DNA of 22,276 nucleotides from a virus. Position 1 is the stretch's first letter. Every line of letters starts with the position of its first letter. The notes beneath the pieces were generated by a model. That model was not told the origin of the DNA. It made no database searches and was given only the letters and a program-made list of their open reading frames with translations. The DNA lies in IMG/VR virus record IMGVR_UViG_3300050124_000005, positions 1 to 22,276 of that record. One strand, written 5' to 3'. The position numbers and the translations under genes are program-made. Positions 6,026 through 15,724 of this stretch are shown here, in pieces.

Positions 6026-7762
6026 TTACCTCCTAAAGAGTAATTTTTTATCCATGAAAGTAATCCTGCCAATAACAACAATGTCATTAATTCGATTTGC
6101 AAATTCTGATACGATGTCAGGCGCATCATCATGTTGTGAAAAGTCCTGCCCTGCAAAGTCCATGACCTGCTGAATGAAGTCCGTGTCCTCTGCATTGAAT
6201 ATTATCCTGCCATTGTTTACATCTGCGACACAGCTCGCTATTTTGTCGTCTTTATTTGCCCTTGTGGGTTCATTGACGATGGTTAAATCTCTACCCCTTA
6301 GCAACGGGTCTGCTTCAATAAACTGCTCAAGACGGTTCGCGTCAGAGCCATTGAATGTGTTCTTTTCAATGTAGATACAAGTTATATCTGGATAATCTTT
6401 AAGCAGTTTTATAATATGCTCAATATATTTGTCAAACTCGGTTCTTGCGTCCATCTTTAAGAGCTCGGCCTTGCGAACATATTTGAAGTCGTTGTCAGCA
6501 AGTGAGCCGACAAGAAAAGCAAAACTGTCACTACTCTTGGTTGATGTACTCGCAGGGTCCACGCAGAGCATTGTCTTAACAAAAATATGATTTTCAATAT
6601 CTTCTTTCGGCTTTGACAAATTTGACTTAAACCATTTATCACCAATCTTTGAAGCATCGTTCATCATTTCCTGTTTAAAGGCTTGCGGATTAGTGTAATA
6701 ATCAATTGCCAGATCTAAACAGTCAAACTTATCTTCCCAAATTGTCTTGTACTGCATTTCTGATTCATATTGATAATAAAACTCTTTGGCAGCTGAAACG
6801 CTGTCTTGAAGTTTATCGTTAAAATAAATAAGACGAAATTCTTCCCACAATCCCTCATGAAAATATTCGTCTACATCAAATTCAACTGCTCGTTTTAAAA
6901 CGTGCTTATAATCCTTGTTGGTTAATAATCGAGACATAAAGCAATCTCTATGTAAGATCGTACCGCAAACAATAAACTTTGTTGCTTGCTTAATCTTTAT
7001 CTTTTTACGGTAAACCGCTTTGTCTCCTGCGTACCCCGAATCTTCCATCCAAGTGTTATATTTTTTATCCCGGGCCTCCTGCGTTATAATATCAATTCGC
7101 CCTTGGTAATCGTCTGCAATAATAACGCTTGGGCGGTTGCCATCATATTTTTTACCACGCATGGAGGATGTGGATGATATAGCCTGTATCTTTGTTTTGT
7201 TGGATAATTCAAGTTCTAATTTATTGACCGTAAATTTACTTGTATTTACTAGCTTCCCAAAAGCATCAAGGATATACTTATTTTCCTCAAATGCTTGCCG
7301 TGTTTGTGCAAGAAATTCTGTACTGTCCTGCTCTGTGCGTCCACATACTAATGTATAAGTTGATTTTTTGTAGCAGTGAAGCCACACGGATAACGCAAAG
7401 TCAACTATTGTTGTTTTGGCACAGCCTCGGGGCAGTACAAATTCTTCTTTGTCGAATTCGTCCTTGAGGAACATCCTGTCGAGTTCGTCCCATACTTCTA
7501 AATGCACTGGGGCTAATTCCCTGGCGGCATTATTTTCTTTCGGGATGAACGTATCTTGTAGAAAATATTTGCAGAAAAAAGGGAAGGATATTTCGCCCAT
7601 CTGATAAGCAAGCCCGCGAAAGCCAAATAGATTATTAATATGCTTATATATTAATTGCTCGGTTGCTGTTTCTGATTCTTTTAAACTTGCACCTGCGGAT
7701 ATATATTTCTGATAAACCGCAGCATATAATAATTGGCGGTTTTGTTTGTCCTCTTCGTTCAT
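6026..7762 (-). CDS. terL: Terminase large subunit (578 aa)
   Basis: This is the packaging motor and nuclease. The ATPase domain has a Walker A at residues 111-118 (PRGCAKTT) and a Walker B at 213-218 (VIIADD), with a GRTEQDS adenine-side region near 141 and a CGT coupling-type motif near 266. The C-terminal RNase H-like nuclease domain shows the expected acidic residues in MLCVDPAST (D402), CIYIEKNTF (E466) and HDDAPD (about 545-549). The start has AAGGTGA 5 nt upstream. Length is typical for siphophage terminases. Unusually, terS does not directly precede it: two genes and a long AT-rich gap lie between. Confidence 0.95.
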   Translation of the reverse strand: MNEEDKQNRQLLYAAVYQKYISAGASLKESETATEQLIYKHINNLFGFRGLAYQMGEISFPFFCKYFLQDTFIPKENNAARELAPVHLEVWDELDRMFLKDEFDKEEFVLPRGCAKTTIVDFALSVWLHCYKKSTYTLVCGRTEQDSTEFLAQTRQAFEENKYILDAFGKLVNTSKFTVNKLELELSNKTKIQAISSTSSMRGKKYDGNRPSVIIADDYQGRIDIITQEARDKKYNTWMEDSGYAGDKAVYRKKIKIKQATKFIVCGTILHRDCFMSRLLTNKDYKHVLKRAVEFDVDEYFHEGLWEEFRLIYFNDKLQDSVSAAKEFYYQYESEMQYKTIWEDKFDCLDLAIDYYTNPQAFKQEMMNDASKIGDKWFKSNLSKPKEDIENHIFVKTMLCVDPASTSTKSSDSFAFLVGSLADNDFKYVRKAELLKMDARTEFDKYIEHIIKLLKDYPDITCIYIEKNTFNGSDANRLEQFIEADPLLRGRDLTIVNEPTRANKDDKIASCVADVNNGRIIFNAEDTDFIQQVMDFAGQDFSQHDDAPDIVSEFANRINDIVVIGRITFMDKKLLFRR

Positions 7763-7771
7763 ATTGTCACC

Positions 7772-8062
7772 TTATAGCATAGTTTTAAGCGCTTCCCAGA
7801 GCGCATCGGCGGCATTATCACCTGAACTCTTTTTAATATCATCATGACCATCGTCAATATAAATTTCATATCGTCCTTGACCAAAAACAAGTGATATTAA
7901 AGCATCGGGGTTTAGCTCATCGAGCAAATTAATGACACCCATTGCATCAAATCCCAAAATTTCTTTTGTTTTTATCCCGGTTAATTCTTTAAATCTCTTA
8001 AGTTGAACACTGGTTAATTCTAAAATTTGATTTTGTGTTATTATAAATTTGAGCTTTTTCAT
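7772..8062 (-). CDS. Unknown protein upstream of terL (96 aa)
   Basis: I do not recognise this 96-aa protein. The N-terminal part is basic with short helices (KFIITQNQILELTSVQLKRF, then KELTGIKTKEILGF); the C-terminal part is acidic (YEIYIDDGHDDIKKSSGDN) and ends in a helix with ALWEALKTM. It lies 1 nt after the RepL-like gene and 9 nt before terL, so it is probably co-transcribed with both. The nearest ribosome-binding-like sequence, GGAGAT, is 13 nt from the ATG, which is rather far. It may belong to the same inserted module as the RepL-like gene. Confidence 0.65.
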   Translation of the reverse strand: MKKLKFIITQNQILELTSVQLKRFKELTGIKTKEILGFDAMGVINLLDELNPDALISLVFGQGRYEIYIDDGHDDIKKSSGDNAADALWEALKTML

Positions 8063-8063
8063 A

Positions 8064-8597
8064 TTATTTTAAATCTCCCCAACGTTTTTTAAATGTCTGT
8101 ATGTAGTAATCTGCAAATAATGTTTTGAGCGTTGCGTTTACTTTTGTACCACGCATAACAAGCCACGGATTAATAACAAAAGCTTTGCCGTTTTTGATTA
8201 ATGCAATCGCCAATATGCCTTTATCCCTTAAACTTTTAATTACTCTGTATATAACCGGTTCGGATAAGTTCGATACCTTACATAGGCCGCCAATATCAAC
8301 AGGTTTATTATTCCTATAAGTAACCACGCAACTATCGAAAGCAATATATCCCTGAATAGAAAAAAGAAATATTCTCTCGTTATTGTTTAACGTAGGCATC
8401 AGTTTTGAAAATTCATCTGTATTTATTTTGGTGAAATGTTCGTGACAGATTGAGATTAAATCTTCGCTACCCTGATATTTTTTGTACTCTAAATTCTCAT
8501 AGGCATCCCGACTTGACTTTCTAACAATCCTGTCGCCCTCATACAGTTCAGTAGGCGCGCCGTTTAAGTCAACAACATAACCTCTTATTTCTTGCAA
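8064..8597 (-). CDS. RepL-like winged-helix replication/regulatory protein (177 aa, TTG start)
   Basis: The layout resembles Gram-positive plasmid RepL proteins. An N-terminal strand region has RGYVVDLNGAPTELYEGDRI and VRKSSRDAYE. A helical region is followed by a winged helix-turn-helix at about residues 105-150 (DIGGLCKVSNLSEPVIYRVI, then KSLRDKGILAIALIKNGKAF). It ends in INPWLVMRGTKVNATLKTLF, close to the N-P-x-L-hydrophobic-M-R-G motif at the end of RepL. The start is a TTG with GAGGTGA 5 nt upstream; no ATG is available nearby. A 535-nt AT-rich gap with phased repeats lies just upstream. It could start replication from that site or regulate late genes; the sequence does not decide between them. 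Confidence 0.65.
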   Translation of the reverse strand: MQEIRGYVVDLNGAPTELYEGDRIVRKSSRDAYENLEYKKYQGSEDLISICHEHFTKINTDEFSKLMPTLNNNERIFLFSIQGYIAFDSCVVTYRNNKPVDIGGLCKVSNLSEPVIYRVIKSLRDKGILAIALIKNGKAFVINPWLVMRGTKVNATLKTLFADYYIQTFKKRWGDLK

Positions 8598-8771
8598 TTA
8601 CTTCACCTCACTAAAGTTTTTATCTGTACAGATAAAGTTAAAAGTGCTTGTTTTCTTGATACCTATGCGGTTAATTGATACTTTTTGGCGAATTGGCCAC
8701 TCTGTAATAATAACTCTACTTAAAGGCTTTGAAAATTTTATAAAAATAATTGTTGAGGTGAGTGTGGGCAT
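8598..8771 (-). CDS. Doubtful small ORF before RepL-like gene (57 aa)
   Basis: A 57-aa reading frame ends directly against the TTG start of the RepL-like gene, and its last codons contain that gene's ribosome-binding site, as is usual for neighbouring operon genes. It starts at an ATG with a poor GGGG 9 nt upstream, or at a TTG three codons earlier. The protein begins MPTLTSTIIFIKFSKPLSR and ends with FNFICTDKNFSEVK. No family is recognised. The weak ribosome-binding site and the odd composition leave it uncertain. Confidence 0.25.
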   Translation of the reverse strand: MPTLTSTIIFIKFSKPLSRVIITEWPIRQKVSINRIGIKKTSTFNFICTDKNFSEVK

Positions 8772-8896
8772 ATCTGCCAACCCCGAAAAAGAAGGTCACC
8801 CCCTAACTATACCATTAAAGTCTATTATACAAAATCATAATTTAGGCTAATACACATTGGCTTACCTATGCCATTATATATGCTTATAACAATTAA

Positions 8897-8957
8897 ATGT
8901 ATATATACATGCATAATTACTGCATAAACTATGTATAATCGGCATATATAGTGCATA
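8897..8957. repeat. 14-bp palindrome plus five helically phased GCATA/GTATA repeats
   Basis: A perfect 14-bp palindrome (ATGTATATATACAT, 8897-8910) is followed directly by GCATA at 8911 and 8922, GTATA at 8933, and GCATA at 8942 and 8953. The steps are 11, 11, 9 and 11 nt, close to one DNA turn, so a protein could bind all copies on one face. This resembles iterons of replication origins or a multi-site operator. It lies about 300 nt upstream of the RepL-like gene. Confidence 0.6.
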
Positions 8958-9132
8958 TTTATACAATAGATTTGGTGTTGTTTGAGAGGGTGCACTCGGG
9001 CGAGGCTTAGCCATCTTATCCCCATACATTCGCCCTATATTTTATTTAACTACATATAATGAAGCAATTATTTAAACATTATGTTATGTATAACAATCAT
9101 ATTGTAATCAATATTATTTACAACATTACATA

Positions 9133-9683: not shown

Positions 9684-9713
9684 ATGTCACACTTCATTTC
9701 GAGCATAGAAATA

Positions 9714-9735
9714 AGCGCCCGATTTCTCGAACGCT
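9714..9735 (-). terminator. Stable hairpin with GAAA tetraloop between regulator and terS
   Basis: On the minus strand AGCGTTCGA pairs with TCGGGCGCT, giving 9 bp with two G-U wobbles, closed by a GAAA tetraloop. TTATTTCTAT follows, a poor U-tract, so termination would be partial. The position, after the late-regulator gene and before terS, fits a boundary between middle and late transcription. Confidence 0.5.
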
Positions 9736-9767
9736 TTTAACAAATACACTATATCACTTATCTGGTA

Positions 9768-10184
9768 TCAATTACTATCAAGTAATATACAATTTATTGA
9801 AATTAATGCTCTGCCATGAAGTTCGCAAACCCATTGATACGAAATATCAAGGTCTACTGCAATCCGCTCCCACGTTTTACCGTTTATGTACCTCAAAACA
9901 AGAACTTGGCGCTGTTTTGCGTTCCCGACTTTTCGTATTGAATCACAAATTTCATGTTTTAACTCAATCAGTTTGTCGATCTCTGAATTAACTTCATTCT
10001 CCATATCCACAATCTTTGCCACTATTTTCTCGGTCTTGTTTTCCTGCGAAGATTGCACCTTGTCAGGATTAAGCGTTGAAGTGGTTTTAGTTGCCAGCTC
10101 CCGCAGCCGCCGGATTTGATCAAGCTTTGAATTAATTTCACGATCTGCATTGCGGTATTGCTGTAAGTATTCTTTAGCGGTCAT
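9768..10184 (-). CDS. ArpU / DUF1492-like late transcription regulator (138 aa)
   Basis: The 138-aa protein has an N-terminal coiled coil (YLQQYRNADREINSKLDQIR and on to about residue 85). It ends in a sigma-70 region-4-like helix-turn-helix at about residues 90-130, with KQRQVLVLRYINGKTWERIA followed by VDLDISYQWVCELHGRAL. This layout is that of ArpU/RinA-like phage proteins, which switch on late (packaging and structural) genes. It sits exactly at the junction before terS. GGGAGGTGA precedes the ATG, and the start overlaps the 28-aa gene by 4 nt (ATGA). Its target promoter cannot be identified by eye. Confidence 0.85.
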   Translation of the reverse strand: MTAKEYLQQYRNADREINSKLDQIRRLRELATKTTSTLNPDKVQSSQENKTEKIVAKIVDMENEVNSEIDKLIELKHEICDSIRKVGNAKQRQVLVLRYINGKTWERIAVDLDISYQWVCELHGRALISINCILLDSN

Positions 10185-13709: not shown

Positions 13710-14996
13710 TTAATCGTATCTCTTCTCAATTTCTTCAAAAGTTTGAACTCCACCCCGAAAAGTCATATCCGTAACCCCTGTTTGGCCGTATTTGTTTTTA
13801 TCAAGTAAAAATTGCGTTTGCTCTGGAATAAACTCTTCTTTTGATTTTTCGTAAACATAGGGACGGTGAATTAGTAACACATAGTCGCCATCAGCTTCAA
13901 GATTTCCACTTTCTTTCAAGTCACTCATGCGTGGTGGTTTAGGCTTTCCTGTTTTATCGGTTTGTCTTGCAACTTGACTAATTACCATCACATGACATTT
14001 ACATTGTTTCGCTAATTTTTTAAATGCTTGGCTTATGTAGTCGATTCTTTCTCTTGCGCCTCCGAATTTCTGAACCGTCCTCACACACTGAATAAAATCC
14101 ACTATCACAAAATCCGGCTTTAACTCGTAAACTTTTGCGGCGATTTCCTCAACTGTATAAATATCATCGAAAATATAAAGCTGCTTGGTGTCGTAAACCT
14201 CGGCAAGTTTTTGAGATACTTTATATTGCTGCGGCTTGTCTAAATATTTGTCTGTAAATGCCGAATAAGGAATACTAAGCATCGAACTAAAAAGGCGGTC
14301 ATAAATCTGTGTTTTGCTCATTTCTAAACTAAAAAATGCTACTTTGTTTTTGCTTTTAAATTGATTAGCTGCGATATTGATAGCAAAAGTTGTTTTACCT
14401 GTACTTGGTGGTGCTCCCAGATAAGATAAGCAGCCCTTTAAAAGTCCACCCAGCTTTTTATCAATTTTTGAAAAGCCTGTCCAAATCCTATCTTCTCGGT
14501 CAAGTGGCTTATAAATCTGCTCGTTATAACTTAATAAAAACTGCTTTTGCTCTTCGTCACTTGTGGCAACTGCTGTTTTGTTTTGTTCTTCGTCAACAAT
14601 TTTTGTAAGGGCAGGGATGAGGGTTTCCGGTTCTTCATCCCCGTAAACAATATCTTGTAATTTCGCCATCACTCGCCGCTTTTGTGACTTCGCCCTCACA
14701 ATTTCCACATATGCCCCCACGTTCCCCGTGAACGGCACTATCTGTGCAAGGTGCAATATATAGCTTTTTACATCTTCAACGCCTGTGAGGTCATTTTTCA
14801 AACGTTCGTGCAAAGTTACAAAGTCAAGTGGTTTGTTTTGGCTGTGCATTTCAAGCATGGCTGTAAAGGTTTTTTGATGTTCCAATAAGTAAAAGTCACT
14901 TGCAATTATTTTGCTGATAAGCGGTATTGCTTCTTCGGGGCTTATAAGTATTGCACCTAAAACTGACTGTTCCGCTTCAAGGCTATAATCTGTCAA
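13710..14996 (-). CDS. DnaB-like replicative helicase (428 aa, TTG start)
   Basis: This is the ring helicase that unwinds the phage replication fork. The N-terminal DnaB domain starts LEAEQSVLGAILISPEEAIP. The RecA-like domain has Walker A at about residues 195-203 (GAPPSTGKTT) and Walker B at 296-301 (FVIVDF). Next come VISQVARQTDKTGKPKPPRM and the SDLKESGNLEADGDYVLLI motif (about 358-376), typical of DnaB. FLLDKNKYGQTG near the C-terminus is the arginine-finger region variant. The start is TTG, overlapping the upstream stop as TTGA, with AGGGG 11 nt before it. Length is normal for phage DnaB proteins. Confidence 0.93.
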   Translation of the reverse strand: MTDYSLEAEQSVLGAILISPEEAIPLISKIIASDFYLLEHQKTFTAMLEMHSQNKPLDFVTLHERLKNDLTGVEDVKSYILHLAQIVPFTGNVGAYVEIVRAKSQKRRVMAKLQDIVYGDEEPETLIPALTKIVDEEQNKTAVATSDEEQKQFLLSYNEQIYKPLDREDRIWTGFSKIDKKLGGLLKGCLSYLGAPPSTGKTTFAINIAANQFKSKNKVAFFSLEMSKTQIYDRLFSSMLSIPYSAFTDKYLDKPQQYKVSQKLAEVYDTKQLYIFDDIYTVEEIAAKVYELKPDFVIVDFIQCVRTVQKFGGARERIDYISQAFKKLAKQCKCHVMVISQVARQTDKTGKPKPPRMSDLKESGNLEADGDYVLLIHRPYVYEKSKEEFIPEQTQFLLDKNKYGQTGVTDMTFRGGVQTFEEIEKRYD

Positions 14997-15724
14997 AGTC
15001 TGTCCATCCCCTCATAGCCAAAATTATTAGATTGCTTTGGTTTACTATCTTTTTCCCACGTCCTAACAGCAGCTTGCCAGTCTTTCATTTTGTTTTTGCC
15101 AATCATCCACCCTTTGCTTTCATAAAAATCAAAATATCGTTGAGGATCTACGTTGTTTTTCCTCTCCGTGCAATAAGTGGATATTTCTATAATTGTCGGT
15201 GGAATGAATTTTGTGTGTTTTCCCCCTTGGGGGTTTGGGGGTATATATTCTTTATCTATATCTACTTCTATATCTAACTCTGTAGCGTTACCTTGCGTTA
15301 CTGTAGCGTTACCGCTAACGTTACCACTCGCTAAAAGCTTTTTATTTTGTTTATATTTACTAACTCTTAGCCTTGTTTGTTCTCTTATTCTCTCTAATCC
15401 GTCAATGTTTTGATACTCGCTCCAATTTTTAACGTAAATAATATCTTCAAATATTTCAATCATTTCAAATTTTTCTAAAACATTTAAAGCTAATTTAATC
15501 ACATCAATTGGAAAATCAAACTGAATTGCAAGGCCGTCAGGATTATAAGGAATTGTGTCGGTAAAATATAAAGCACCGCTTTTATTGCTTTCCCCTGCTT
15601 GTGCCAAAAGGAATACCCATATTAAAACAATACTGTTGCCATCTGGCATTTTACGGATTCGCTTAATTTTGTGGTTGCTCATTATGCTTGTGTAAATTTT
15701 TATCCATTTAACTTCTGCCGTAAT
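14993..15724 (-). CDS. Replisome organizer / DnaD-like protein (243 aa, ATT or ACG start)
   Basis: The N-terminus reads AEVKWIKIYTSIMSNHKIKR, then GNSIVLIWVFLLAQAGESNK, the winged-helix replisome-organizer domain that binds the phage origin. A low-complexity linker (about residues 130-160) follows. The C-terminus has the GKNKMKDWQAAVRTWEKD motif used to contact the helicase loader or helicase, which is encoded directly downstream. The conserved EVKWIKI block lies upstream of the first ATG (15680-15682), which has no ribosome-binding site. GGAGGTGA at 15728-15735 instead points to ATT (15722-15724) or ACG (15719-15721). The linker DNA carries iteron-like repeats, so the origin may lie inside the gene. 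Confidence 0.88.
   Translation of the reverse strand: MTAEVKWIKIYTSIMSNHKIKRIRKMPDGNSIVLIWVFLLAQAGESNKSGALYFTDTIPYNPDGLAIQFDFPIDVIKLALNVLEKFEMIEIFEDIIYVKNWSEYQNIDGLERIREQTRLRVSKYKQNKKLLASGNVSGNATVTQGNATELDIEVDIDKEYIPPNPQGGKHTKFIPPTIIEISTYCTERKNNVDPQRYFDFYESKGWMIGKNKMKDWQAAVRTWEKDSKPKQSNNFGYEGMDRL
15241..15325. other. Candidate replication origin inside replisome-organizer gene
   Basis: Four CGTTAC(C) repeats start at 15286, 15296, 15307 and 15319, about one DNA turn apart. Two of them lie in a perfect 12-bp direct repeat, TGTAGCGTTACC (15281-15292 and 15302-15313). Next to them is an AT-rich tract (15241-15280) built of TCTATATCTA-type repeats. Iterons followed by an AT-rich unwinding tract inside the initiator gene is the layout of lambda ori in gene O. 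A G/C-run block (15221-15241) flanks the other side. Confidence 0.6.

Follow-up and report, generated by a model that had tools for sequence, protein, structure and literature searches.

A RepL-related winged-helix gene and a putative packaging site between the terminase genes of a tailed-phage fragment

Genes and features between terS and terL

The window analysed here, 22,276 bases long, comprises an entire IMG/VR record and represents a tailed-phage fragment in which the minus strand carries every main gene. The region of interest consists, in this order, of terS, a 535-nt gap, a gene encoding a 177-aa winged-helix (wHTH) protein, a 96-aa gene and terL (Table 1). An earlier note on this DNA had described an AT-rich gap, a RepL-like gene and an additional gene separating the two terminase genes, and had mentioned the usual DnaD/DnaB replication genes; the coordinates of the former were correct and both of the latter were found. 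The wHTH gene starts with TTG and is preceded by the ribosome site GAGGTGA. It is separated from the 96-aa gene by 1 nt, and the 96-aa gene from terL by 9 nt, so that the three are probably expressed from a single transcript with the wHTH gene in first position.

Table 1. Features of the window (positions refer to the whole 22,276-nt stretch)
Feature	Position	Strand	Remarks
terL, terminase large subunit	6026-7762	-	phrog_38, 2e-84
96-aa protein	7772-8062	-	69% identical copy in L006/L007/L213
RepL-family wHTH protein, 177 aa	8064-8597	-	profile, homology, structure prediction
terS-wHTH gap, 535 nt	8598-9132		31% GC (about 38% in the window)
wHTH leader GCACTTTT...AAACTTTAgtgaGGTgAAG, conserved with the wHTH gene	8602-8650	-	alignment
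18-bp perfect palindrome TTTATCTGTACAGATAAA, presumed wHTH operator	8619-8636		22-39 nt 5' of the wHTH start
Counterpart of the inverted-repeat element of sister wHTH genes, degenerate arms	8690-8719	-	alignment with L003, L149, L005, L008
BLOCK, about 85 nt, AGGGGGTGACCTTCTTTTT...CACCTCAACAATTATTTTTATAA	8724-8810	-	profile matches, about 20 related loci
12-bp palindrome TGTATATATACA	8898-8909		overlaps the last repeat; read directly
Six phased GYATA repeats	8899-8957	+ (exact)	shuffles, conservation
Conserved GGCTnAGGC..CGCTCG-like motif	8990-9014	-	alignment of relatives whose wHTH types differ
terS, terminase small subunit, 141 aa	9133-9558	-	phrog_2538, 2e-20
Terminator-like hairpin ahead of terS	9713-9736	-	one found, 1.2 expected by chance
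Late-regulator-like protein	9768-10184	-	phrog_36, sigma region 4
Replication module of the phage itself: DnaB helicase and DnaD-like replisome organizer	13710-15682	-	

The assumption that terS and terL normally adjoin did not apply to this terminase family, in which a non-adjacent arrangement is normal: a gap of several hundred nt is typical of the relatives, with inserted genes present or absent. In wHTH-less relatives the gap can contain, on the terS side of the conserved BLOCK, a gene for a small tyrosine (about 190 aa, phrog_216) or small serine (phrog_125) recombinase (L022:5111-5689, L113:6551-7108, L021:5182-5763, L031:3293-3931, L041:8-631 and L219:2112-2684), and recombinase and wHTH genes appear to be mutually exclusive there. 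Small metallopeptidase-like genes, with an HExxH-type motif recognised by eye, lie between the wHTH gene and terL at L005:5711-5998 and L008:3932-4342. The terS-wHTH pairs of L158, L196, L207 and L216 are directly flanked by sugar-nucleotide biosynthesis-like genes (named by eye as aminotransferase-, formyltransferase- and NeuB-like). The wHTH gene of contig 3300025009_000094 (66,526 bases; L199 and L217) is split across both contig ends with an overlap, indicating that this genome is probably complete and its map circular.

Phased repeats and the conserved BLOCK

The GYATA units start at 8899, 8911, 8922, 8933, 8942 and 8953, in steps of 12, 11, 11, 9 and 11 nt. Five GCATA/GTATA repeats with steps of 11, 11, 9 and 11 nt had been noticed before; these are real and phased, but the chain has a sixth unit and an extra step of 12 nt. 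A chain of six GYATA units did not occur in any of 2000 dinucleotide shuffles, nor was a chain of six obtained in 500 shuffles in which the motif could be any 5-mer containing a single degenerate position. The 12-bp palindrome overlapping the last repeat is altered on both sides in L008, where it reads TGCATATATGCA.

These repeats had been interpreted as the RepL-like protein's own iterons, and their conservation in relatives was therefore compared. They were found to be conserved, but across unrelated wHTH types. The DNA extending from terS to BLOCK is 76% identical between the window and L003 (shuffled 57%) and 86% identical between L005 and L006 (shuffled 59%), and within each of the two pairs the wHTH proteins share 25% identity. 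TerL is near-identical among relatives whose slot holds quite different wHTH types. In an iteron-type replicon the initiator would co-evolve with the adjacent iterons, whereas these repeats stayed constant across wHTH types, and on the evidence of the two pairs the reading of the GYATA units as RepL-specific iterons was rejected. Between L203 and L200 the repeat region is 89% identical although their terS sequences are 42% identical, which suggests that the region follows TerL or the locus and not strictly terS.

All profile matches of BLOCK in about 20 related loci were on the terL strand and between terS and terL. In L015, L010, L041, L021, L022, L113 and L119 BLOCK stands directly 5' of terL, and no wHTH gene is present. 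It could also be recognised by eye in the C. difficile phage HGP05 and in more distant relatives. Since repeats and BLOCK occur with unrelated wHTH types, and BLOCK also without any wHTH gene, both belong to the packaging genes. Their position beside the terminase genes and their conservation with TerL suggest that they most likely form a packaging site of the cos/pac type, in which BLOCK would be the candidate cutting part and the GGCTnAGGC..CGCTCG-like motif, presumably, the terS-side end. Packaging sites of this type in tailed phages include cosB/cosN of lambda and pac of SPP1. As in these, the window has repeats plus a conserved block near terS and terL, conserved with TerL; unlike them, the candidate is located between the two genes and not ahead of terS. 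Mapped 3'-cos ends have been described for C. difficile phages (PMC5557969). A search of 50,697 phages revealed no close relative that has been characterised, and the ends of the contigs, inspected for evidence of cos, had no common end point. The possibility that BLOCK acts as an RNA was considered and rejected: there was no credible Rfam match, single-sequence folds gave z values from -2.6 to +0.5 without a common structure, and no hairpin was consistently significant.

The wHTH protein, its leader and its distribution

Against Pfam the window protein had weak matches only, RepL (PF05732) scoring 12.0 bits, below the cut-off of 20.3. The cut-off was exceeded by the phage sister L018 (23.6 bits) and the plasmid proteins L045 (30.7) and L047 (21.3). 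By tblastn the window protein had relatives on small plasmids of Bacilli, with a match to Priestia megaterium at 4e-7 that covered 61% of its length, and an iterative profile search connected the plasmid homologs to proteins occupying the same slot in many phages. Profile-profile comparison of the type-B/phage set with the set of window and plasmid proteins, two sets that have members in common, gave 99.9% over 151 columns. By these comparisons the window protein is probably a divergent RepL relative; the earlier designation as a RepL-like winged helix is borne out by the sisters and plasmid homologs, but not by the score of the window protein itself. Like RepL, the Firmicute plasmid replication protein (pSN2 family), it is about 18-20 kDa in size and has a central wHTH and a C-terminal NP-x-G-F; unlike RepL, it is sub-threshold and encoded in a terminase operon. 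The leaders of two plasmid homologs (L046 and L047, from Heyndrickxia and S. mutans plasmids) are able to form hairpins over the ribosome site (CTAATTCC...GGAATTAG), resembling attenuation-type copy-number control. The family phrog_31110, which has no assigned function, matched 9 of the 15 wHTH proteins in an alignment, at best with 7e-30, the window protein being absent from the matches listed.

Structure prediction gave the window protein a wHTH core with moderate confidence (pLDDT 65.6) and performed better for the type-B sister L013 (pLDDT 84.8). The matches in the PDB were generic wHTH proteins (MarR, TubR, plasmid Rep and DnaD), none with an E-value of 0.001 or less. MarR-type and TubR DNA-binding proteins matched best, but the window protein differs from these in having additional N- and C-terminal parts. 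Fold searches failed to distinguish a regulator from an initiator; the fold by itself is not sufficient to tell the function.

Two profile scans, which partly re-sampled the same contigs, yielded 72 loci, many of them on contig fragments and several on near-duplicate contigs. The wHTH gene flanks terminase genes in 67 of these, and no terminase was detected near it in the other five. The arrangement was terS-wHTH-terL in 34 loci; in 14 the gene immediately preceded terS, in 10 it preceded terL and in 9 it followed terS, and in none of the 72 was it behind terL. The linked terminases include terS of phrog_2538, 309, 606 and 51 and TerL of phrog_38 and phrog_2. A scan with one type-B profile detected 69 viral contigs (E-values of the profiles built here are relative to small sets); the bacterial viruses that carry the gene form a large and mostly uncultured set. 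The type-B protein was matched by none of 50,697 named phages and by none of 72,556 plasmids; a second type-B query gave one weak match in the plasmids.

The leader of the wHTH gene was conserved together with the gene. In L149, which lacks BLOCK, a wHTH gene of the L003/L005 type adjoins an unrelated TerL; despite the different terminases its leader matches that of L003 over 65 nt at 81.5% (2e-12). Among type-B sisters, 18 loci contain a 41-43-bp inverted repeat, CATGYAAAGATA-N17-19-TATCTTTRCATG, which was found in none of the shuffled loci and is mostly 44-139 nt 5' of the gene. The exact pattern had 11 matches in 2.9 million viral contigs and 2 in 83 genomes, and all 13 lie in the terS/wHTH slot. 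Both genome matches are upstream of a type-B gene, and nine of the viral matches adjoin one. Of the remaining two, one lies on a short piece of the L191 contig, 111 nt upstream of the L191 gene, and the other (L226) is between terS and a more distant, L019-type wHTH gene (35%, 8.5e-19). In a type-B subset (L186, L195, L178 and L218) one or two CACATTTTTGTG-like operators upstream of the wHTH gene replace the 41-43-bp element.

The strict inverted repeat is absent from the window, which has a degenerate, type-A counterpart at 8690-8719. The palindrome reported earlier as 14 bp long is real but extends over 18 bp (8619-8636). A general rule that every wHTH gene has an adjacent palindrome was not upheld in the larger set, where 3 of 54 leaders had a short-spacer palindrome at p<0.05 (control 0/120), and was dropped; the operator proposed for the window is therefore based on leader conservation plus one palindrome. 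The stretch directly 5' of the wHTH gene, about 8602-8720, fits better as its putative operator than 8897-8957 does. Of the earlier alternative of a late-gene regulator with a multi-site operator, the regulator would thus be retained in preference to a replicon, but with its operator placed away from the repeats.

A proposed packaging site and regulatory module, and alternative functions

The arrangement is best explained by two separate neighbours, a packaging cis-site and an independent autoregulatory wHTH module ahead of the terL operon, an explanation which we consider about as likely to be right as wrong. The packaging genes would have their cis-acting site at about 8724-9014, where TerS would bind the repeats and TerL would cut BLOCK. 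The wHTH gene with the approximately 120 nt before it would be a module inserted between this site and terL, its product binding inverted-repeat elements directly 5' of its own gene and thereby controlling that gene plus the co-transcribed 96-aa gene and the terL/head operon. The protein is thus probably a RepL-derived, putative autoregulatory DNA-binding protein at the head of the packaging operon; we infer its DNA binding, autoregulation and operon control, and the function of the packaging site, from sequence comparison. Several findings count against the model: a phrog_36 late-regulator-like gene is already present ahead of terS, the window lacks the strict inverted repeat, short-spacer palindromes do not characterise wHTH leaders at large, the repeat region does not strictly follow the type of terS, BLOCK has no consistent hairpin, and the plasmid homologs are compatible with a role in replication.

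The main rival to operon regulation is initiation of replication from the same upstream element. A RepL-type initiator would start replication directly 5' of its gene and provide a second origin at the packaging locus. In plasmids a site just 5' of the initiator's own gene is the usual layout. RepL is a recognised family of plasmid initiators (PMC5703833). Moreover, small plasmids of Bacilli (Priestia, Heyndrickxia, S. mutans) carry homologs and have no other obvious initiator annotated, and two of these homologs as well as L018 pass Pfam RepL. We nevertheless think initiation unlikely, in view of the terminase linkage, always ahead of terL, the near absence of type-B homologs from plasmids, the DnaD/DnaB genes of the window, the lack of a DnaA-box match in the terS-wHTH gap, and close relatives that have integrases and no ParA. 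The latter observations bear also on the earlier proposal of an iteron-bearing second replicon in a phage-plasmid or plasmid-phage fusion. A phage-plasmid would be expected to lack an integrase and to carry genes for plasmid partition or replication. Of the close relatives, the two longest encode a serine integrase of 507 aa (G002) and a tyrosine integrase of 347 aa (G003), and ParA was not found in any of the 15 records searched, the judgement resting on these relatives as the window fragment has neither. Together with repeats that do not follow the wHTH type, this makes such a replicon very improbable, in spite of the RepL similarity and of repeats phased beyond chance. A distant homolog (L048) is carried by a 64-kb Brevibacillus plasmid with terminase and portal genes, which indicates that the wHTH family can occur on elements of this kind. 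The presence of DnaB was also considered as a sign that replication is encoded independently; only 4 of 15 records were positive, which is uninformative, since a record can be incomplete and a phage can use another helicase.

The wHTH protein could also act in packaging itself, binding near the packaging site and aiding or modulating the recognition of DNA by terminase. Its strict neighbourhood to unrelated terminases and, in terS-wHTH-terL loci, its position directly adjoining the presumed packaging site would be accounted for, but relatives with homologous TerL manage without it, neither the wHTH type nor its element changes in step with the repeats and BLOCK, and the gene also accompanies a terminase family lacking BLOCK (L149), so that we regard such a cofactor as rather doubtful. 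That the gene is a mere passenger, lodged in a hotspot of recombination and serving neither packaging nor late expression, might be suspected from the recombinases, metallopeptidase-like genes or nothing at all that occupy the same gap in relatives; it is improbable given that terminase linkage, strand and order are conserved across unrelated phages and that the gene is accompanied by a conserved upstream element. More speculatively, a plasmid-type initiator family may have been recruited to the packaging locus of many unrelated phages as its permanent third component. Bound at its inverted repeat, the wHTH would then link the completion of replication with the onset of packaging, or initiate replication at the packaging site; we give this little credence.

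We found no description of the terminase-linked wHTH module in the open literature. The locus exemplifies a widespread gene-plus-site module that is tied to terminases of unrelated families and includes a precise DNA element. It also offers a candidate packaging site in a TerL family for which the search revealed no near relative whose ends had been mapped. Repeats near a RepL-like gene are not necessarily its iterons, and comparison of relatives can tell the two apart.
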